A program made the position numbers and the translations under genes. From NCBI GenBank assembly GCA_902599665.1, contig CACKGK010000006.1, forward strand, positions 17,999 to 81,998: a stretch of 64,000 bases of DNA. The letters are read 5' to 3'. This stretch comes from an uncultured Pelagibacteraceae bacterium. Its GTDB lineage: Bacteria; Pseudomonadota; Alphaproteobacteria; Pelagibacterales; Pelagibacteraceae. Every line of letters begins with the position of its first letter. The first letter of the stretch is position 1. Shown here piece by piece: positions 37,905-39,263 of this stretch. The notes under the pieces are model-generated. The model ran no database searches. It saw only the letters and a program-made list of their open reading frames with translations, and had not been told where the DNA came from.

Positions 37905-37990
37905 GCGGCCATGCTGAAATTGGTAGACAGGCACGGTTGAGGGCCGTGTGAGCATAGCTCATGAGAGTTCGATTCTCTCTGGCCGCACCA
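37905..37990 (+). tRNA. tRNA-Leu (anticodon GAG), CCA encoded
   Basis: GCGGCCA...CACGG-TTGAGGG-CCGTG...class II variable arm (TGAGCATAGCTCA)...GAGAG-TTCGATT-CTCTC-TGGCCGC-ACCA. Confidence 0.95.
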
Positions 37991-38008: not shown

Positions 38009-38040
38009 AAAAAAGGGGCGTTCTGTTGCCAGGTGCCCCA
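38009..38040 (-). terminator. Probable tmRNA terminator (may also be part of the mature 3' structure)
   Basis: Minus strand GGGGCACCTGGCAACAGAACGCCCCTTTTTT: GGGGC...GCCCC stem plus T-tract. Confidence 0.6.
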
Positions 38041-38290
38041 AACCCCGTAACTTAATTATTAAATTAATTAAGCTGCAAGTGCATAACTTTCGTTAGCATT
38101 TATAAATTAGCCCGTTACGGCGGAACAATACCGAACGAAAGAACAACTTTTAGACACCCGTCGATCCTAATTCACCCCCTTAAGTTGTAAATGGTGGAGG
38201 TGGTGGGTACTGCCCCCACGTCCGTAATGGTTATTACGAAATTCGTTTATCGTCATAGTTGGAAAACCAACACTATTAATATAAAACCAA
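38009..38290 (-). ncRNA. ssrA: Circularly permuted two-piece transfer-messenger RNA (alpha-tmRNA); outer boundaries approximate
   Basis: Minus strand reads: acceptor piece ...GGACGTGGGGGCAGTACCCACCACCTCCACCA (CCA ends at 38192), short spacer, then coding piece GGGGGTGAATTAGGATCGACGGG (starts 38179). GGGGGUG pairs with CACCUCC including the tmRNA G3:U wobble. Tag frame GCT AAC GAA AGT TAT GCA CTT GCA GCT TAA = ANESYALAA (38097-38068). Confidence 0.9.
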
Positions 38291-38315
38291 ATAATAGAGA
38301 TTCAATAATTTATTC

Positions 38316-39263
38316 ATGAAACTTACAAAAGATCAAATAAACGACATAAAAGAACAACAATCTCAAGATAATAAAACTAAAAGAGTTACCGCTCCAGAAT
38401 TAGAAAAAATTTTATATGAGGCTTTACCAGCTTTAGATCACGGCTTTATAAGAGTTATTGATTATATGGGGGATGATAGCTCAATTGTTCAGTCTGCAAG
38501 AGTTTCATATGGTAAGGGGACTAAACAAGTTTCAACAGATAGTGGATTAATTAAGTATCTGATGCGTCACTGGCATAGCACTCCATTTGAAATGTGTGAG
38601 ATTAAATATCATGTCAAATTACCAATATTTATAGCTAGACAATGGATCAGACATCGTACAGCAAATGTAAATGAATACTCGGCAAGATATTCAATATTAG
38701 ATAAAGAATTTTATTTACCTGATCCAGAAAATTTAGCTGCACAATCAATAGCAAACAGACAAGGTCGAGGTGATGTTATTGAAGGAGAACAAGCAAAAGA
38801 AGTTTTAGAACTTTTAAAAAATGATGCAGAAAGAACATATCATAACTATGAGACTATGCTAAATCAAAAATATGATGGATCCACCATTGATGATAATAAA
38901 AAAGGGCTGGCCAGGGAGTTAGCGAGAATGAACTTAACTTTGAATACATATACACAGTGGTACTGGAAAACAGATTTGCTTAACTTAATGAATTTTTTAA
39001 GATTGCGTGCAGATCACCATGCACAATACGAAATAAGAGTTTACGCAGATATTATGTTAGACACATTAAAGAGATGGGTTCCAATTACTTATGATGCTTT
39101 TATGGATTATAGAGTAGGTGGTACTGAAGTTTCAGCTAAAGGTAAAATTATTATTCAAAAGTTATTAAAAGGTGAAAATGTAAATATCGATAATTCTGGA
39201 CTTTCAAAAAGAGAATGGAATGAATTAATGGAAGCTTTTGAAATTAAAGATAAGATTGTTTAA
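38316..39263 (+). CDS. thyX: FAD-dependent thymidylate synthase ThyX
   Basis: [18 protein letters not shown] (RHR-x7-S ThyX motif). Confidence 0.97.

Follow-up and report, generated by a model that had tools for sequence, protein, structure and literature searches.

A permuted two-piece tmRNA gene adjoining thyX

The minus strand of the window (the whole stretch of 64,000 nucleotides analysed) almost certainly carries an ordinary, intact ssrA gene of SAR11 (Pelagibacteraceae), encoding a permuted two-piece tmRNA. The gene runs from about 38271, a start placed from the -10 box, to 38009, the end of the terminator T-run. It is already known, because Meyer and colleagues reported in 2009 its orthologue, a permuted tmRNA in the intergenic region by thyX of 'Candidatus Pelagibacter ubique' HTCC1062 (PMC2704228). 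By the published description, the two genes are alike in being permuted and in adjoining, and diverging from, thyX.

The preliminary description of this DNA had proposed a permuted two-piece tmRNA on the minus strand and named the Rfam alpha_tmRNA model and ARAGORN as checks. Both were run, and both bear the proposal out. The covariance models RF01849 (alpha_tmRNA) and RF04321 (tmRNA_permuted) matched with 233.5 bits (E 1.9e-66; gathering score 50 bits) and 128.5 bits (gathering score 47 bits), respectively; a chance match is therefore excluded. ARAGORN reported a permuted tmRNA with the tag ANESYALAA, although its end at 37977 is an overcall that runs into the neighbouring tRNA-Leu. In common with the two Rfam families, the gene has a full-length match, permuted order, an encoded CCA, a G3:U pair, a tag and the conserved CCUGGCAACAGAA end.

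The acceptor half is encoded upstream of the coding half, with a spacer between them. According to Rfam alignment, direct reading and folding, the acceptor piece occupies 38192..38271 on the minus strand, its 5' end again depending on the -10 box. It opens with a hairpin, GTTGG-TTTT-CCAAC (38271-38258; direct reading and fold), and continues through the T arm (38219-38203; Rfam alignment, reading and fold) to the acceptor 3' strand CACCTCC (38202-38196), A38195 and the CCA that had been described as encoded, which we read at 38194-38192. The coding piece (38009..38179, minus strand; Rfam alpha_tmRNA and ARAGORN) extends from the acceptor 5' strand to the terminator. Its first seven bases, GGGGGTG (38179-38173; direct reading), pair with CACCTCC in reading and fold, giving the acceptor stem of 7 bp with G:U as third pair (G3:U70) noted earlier. 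The tag frame (38068..38097, minus strand) likewise agrees with the earlier proposal: by ARAGORN and by direct reading, the codons GCT AAC GAA AGT TAT GCA CTT GCA GCT TAA at 38097-38068 specify ANESYALAA, with a hydrophobic degron end, followed by a stop. The piece closes with a terminal hairpin, GGGGCACCTGGCAACAGAACGCCCC (38015..38039, minus strand), which folds at -13 kcal/mol and is followed by T6 (38014-38009). A terminator scan of the region found no terminator; the loop of this hairpin is larger than the limit of the scan.

A predicted sigma-70 promoter, TTGAAT-16-TATATT, lies upstream at 38278..38305 on the minus strand and extends to about 10 bases from the thyX start codon. The consensus scan that detected it expects 1.2 sites by chance in the region; conservation also supports it, as the two hexamers keep their register in most loci of the genus, whereas the spacer is variable. 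The preliminary description had placed the gene between tRNA-Leu and thyX as neighbours convergent with each other, which was wrong: tRNA-Leu(GAG) (37905..37990; ARAGORN) and thyX (38316..39263; from the ORF list, identified by sequence and conserved synteny) are both on the plus strand, and the tmRNA converges on the former and diverges from the latter. In most loci of the genus, as in the sister family, thyX is the neighbour of the tmRNA, with tRNA-Leu and nadA following in a subset.

Distribution, spacer and tag among relatives

Of the 297 genomes examined in the order, 269 have an RF01849 match, as do 110 of the 115 in the genus. The five genus genomes with no match (G044, G112, G121, G130 and G179) have an estimated completeness of 91-97%, and the absences are likely to be assembly gaps. 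Across Alphaproteobacteria, compensatory changes were observed at acceptor pairs 5 and 6, the variants being GGGGGTG/CACCTCC, GGGGGCG/CGCCTCC, GGGGACG/CGTCTCC and GGGGTCG/CGACTCC. The G3:U pair and the CCA are present in the window, but both were required by the script that defined loci, so that their constancy across loci is not independent evidence.

The two halves in the window are separated by an intervening sequence of 12 nt, TTTACAACTTAA (38180..38191, minus strand; direct reading), whose removal is expected. This length and position had been described correctly, but the judgement that the spacer is very short holds only against other Alphaproteobacteria. Among the best-scoring loci of each search, which are no random sample, spacers measured 9-16 nt in the genus (median 12; 32 loci) and 7-9 nt in the sister family (23 loci), whereas in 28 other Alphaproteobacteria they measured 16-61 nt (median 34). 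Twelve nucleotides is thus typical within the genus, and a short spacer is characteristic of the clade. The tags differ similarly. SAR11 tags have 9 amino acids (ANESYALAA, ANDKFALAA, ANNKFALAA, ANDELALAA and others), as in the window, whereas those of the other Alphaproteobacteria examined are mostly of 12 amino acids and ANDN-type. A literature search for the tag string found no paper.

Further matches were noted. The window gene is the sole full tmRNA match in its genome; a second alpha_tmRNA match there (21.4 bits; G000:C3) proved to be no tmRNA, consisting of the terminal hairpin alone behind rnhA. Relative L093 has a second, weaker permuted tmRNA (75.7 bits; L093:3669-4007, minus strand) about 2.2 kb downstream of the intact one. 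Eight IMG/VR viral contigs (L128-L135) with the exact hairpin each contain a permuted tmRNA, and in 8/8 the tag ends in ADENLALAA.

Such copies raise the alternative that the window gene is a decayed, non-functional copy, or the tmRNA of an integrated element instead of the host's own gene. Permuted tmRNAs with this 3' hairpin do occur on viral contigs (see also PMC9004378), and a weaker second copy exists in one relative. In the window, however, every tmRNA feature is intact, no other full match exists in the genome, and the host genes around it (thyX, mrp, nadA, nadC) keep a conserved order; the viral tags, moreover, are unlike ANESYALAA. We therefore regard a decayed or element-borne copy as very improbable. 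A phage origin of the window gene was rejected, since the tmRNAs on the viral contigs that share the exact hairpin encode a different tag.

Predicted processing and partners of the tmRNA

The host's ssrA gene would be expressed as one transcript that starts near 38271 and runs through the acceptor piece, the 12-nt spacer and the coding piece to the end of the terminal hairpin. Cuts after the CCA and before G38179 would release two RNAs that stay base-paired together, and alanine would be loaded at the CCA via the G3:U70 pair. Together with SmpB, the charged tmRNA would rescue stalled ribosomes and add ANESYALAA, the ALAA end of which would act as a ClpX degron. smpB (PF01668, 187.9 bits), clpX and rnpA, encoding the RNase P protein, are all present in the same genome. 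ClpX recognises ALAA, and RNase Z has been suggested to act together with RNase P in tmRNA processing (PMC3985003). For RNase Z, we found a weak partial match of 40.7 bits, under the curated cut-off.

This weak match, and the fact that spacers of 7-12 nt leave a loop of 11-16 nt on the acceptor stem, would suit an RNA whose spacer is too short for cutting and which works as one continuous, hairpin-linked molecule. Charging, however, needs a free 3' CCA, and a CCA is encoded in all measured loci, albeit loci in which the script required it. An uncut tmRNA is, in our estimate, even less probable than a decayed or element-borne one, and we retain the two-piece reading.

SspB (PF04386), the adaptor that delivers tagged proteins to ClpX, was detected in none of 98 Pelagibacterales genomes; in a sample taken across the class, 179 of 193 genomes have it. 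Loss of SspB and a tag that often lacks an ANDN start are thus correlated in SAR11, where degradation of tagged proteins would proceed without SspB. Taken together, the gene fits the known picture in which SAR11 keeps trans-translation, with shortened spacers (7-16 nt), tags of 9 amino acids and without a recognisable SspB. Its significance as a tmRNA gene hardly goes beyond annotation.

The terminal hairpin as a candidate cassette attachment site

As a by-product of the tmRNA analysis, we describe, with moderate confidence, a cassette site at the 3' end of the gene. On a slight balance of probability, the tmRNA 3' hairpin, along with similar hairpins at the ends of rnhA and further genes, serves as an attachment site of small integrase-less cassettes that are mobilised in trans and exchange genes, nucleases and proteases included, between SAR11 bacteria, in an integron-like system on the tmRNA terminator.

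The hairpin core occurs in a single copy in the window, and the site there is therefore empty. In some relatives, the terminal hairpin is repeated downstream of the tmRNA. In many SAR11 relatives it was seen to bound small cassettes with conserved ends, single or in tandem (L093, L096, L097 and L136-L215), located at the ends of the tmRNA gene, rnhA and further genes. Public genomes scanned for a variant of the hairpin signature gave 85 stretches, all from records of Pelagibacteraceae, Pelagibacter or Pelagibacterales. This outcome, together with the synteny with HTCC1062, is the basis for assigning the window to SAR11. Adjacent hairpin cores in the scan loci and six others delimit 87 intervals of 121-3749 bp, in which 130 open frames run against the tmRNA direction and 16 along it. 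The left end L1 (TATCAACGTTATTT type) was found in 28 intervals, whose cargo falls into 24 different clusters; 26 of the 28 intervals have RA or RC as right end, and the left ends L2 and L3 were joined to RB in 11/11; the 80 scan loci were chosen by a pattern that contains the right-end signature, the left ends lying outside it. An extra core was present in 9 of 19 genus regions that include about 17 kb of downstream sequence; several of these were chosen for secondary matches, so that this is not a frequency.

Empty and occupied versions of the same site were then paired. At the tmRNA site, L020 is empty and L212 has 1718 bp inserted, and L108 and L122 form a second pair (4339 bp); both flanks are common to each pair. 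At the rnhA site, L127, from the window's own genome, is empty and L178 has 469 bp inserted, again with both flanks in common (right flank 93% over 500 bases). In all three pairs the 3' end of the target is duplicated at the distal boundary, so that the core stands at both ends of the insertion, as site-specific insertion predicts. These pairs, with the core at both ends, support site-specific insertion. Homologous recombination between the hairpins, of about 25 bases, may also account for the pattern, or the insertions may be old and fixed. Elsewhere, insertions are found behind other protein genes; by eye, some of the C-termini flanking them resemble pnp.

Extra hairpins as mere terminators were set aside as a full explanation, since the flanks fall into conserved end families that recur with unrelated cargo; the hairpins may nevertheless function as terminators. 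A classical integron attC site was also considered and rejected: by eye, the hairpin is without the usual core-site motifs.

The cargo includes McrB_N-type and NucS-like nucleases, SRA, GIY-YIG and HNH domains, a DNA methylase with an Mrr domain, trypsin-like proteases, cupredoxins and methyltransferases. Several cargo proteins match PADLOC models of candidate defence proteins, which is no proof of defence. The searches made in the cassettes yielded no integrase; they comprised Pfam scans of 27 proteins from among the largest in the cargo, the 25 most frequent families in a set of 94 cargo proteins, and a motif scan run without a positive control.

tmRNA genes are well-known sites of genomic islands. 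Like the tmRNA islands found by Islander and like tycheposons, the SAR11 cassettes are inserted DNA flanked by a duplicate of an RNA-gene 3' end, and they too may stand in tandem. They differ in their size of 0.1-3.7 kb, in having no detected integrase and in occurring also at protein-gene ends. The Islander search requires an integrase gene (PMC4383910); tycheposons are described as measuring 4-200 kb, and the single one reported in that paper has a tyrosine recombinase (PMC10872708). Among the titles, abstracts and passages searched, a set outside which most subscription papers fall, there was no description of tmRNA cassettes in SAR11, a result that is insufficient to establish their novelty. 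If mobile, such cassettes could allow the streamlined SAR11 to gain or lose single genes, including defence-like nucleases and proteases, without an integrase in the cassette. In the genome of the window, a second hairpin core (G000:C3:71383-71399; L002 and L127) follows rnhA directly, beside a peroxiredoxin-like gene.
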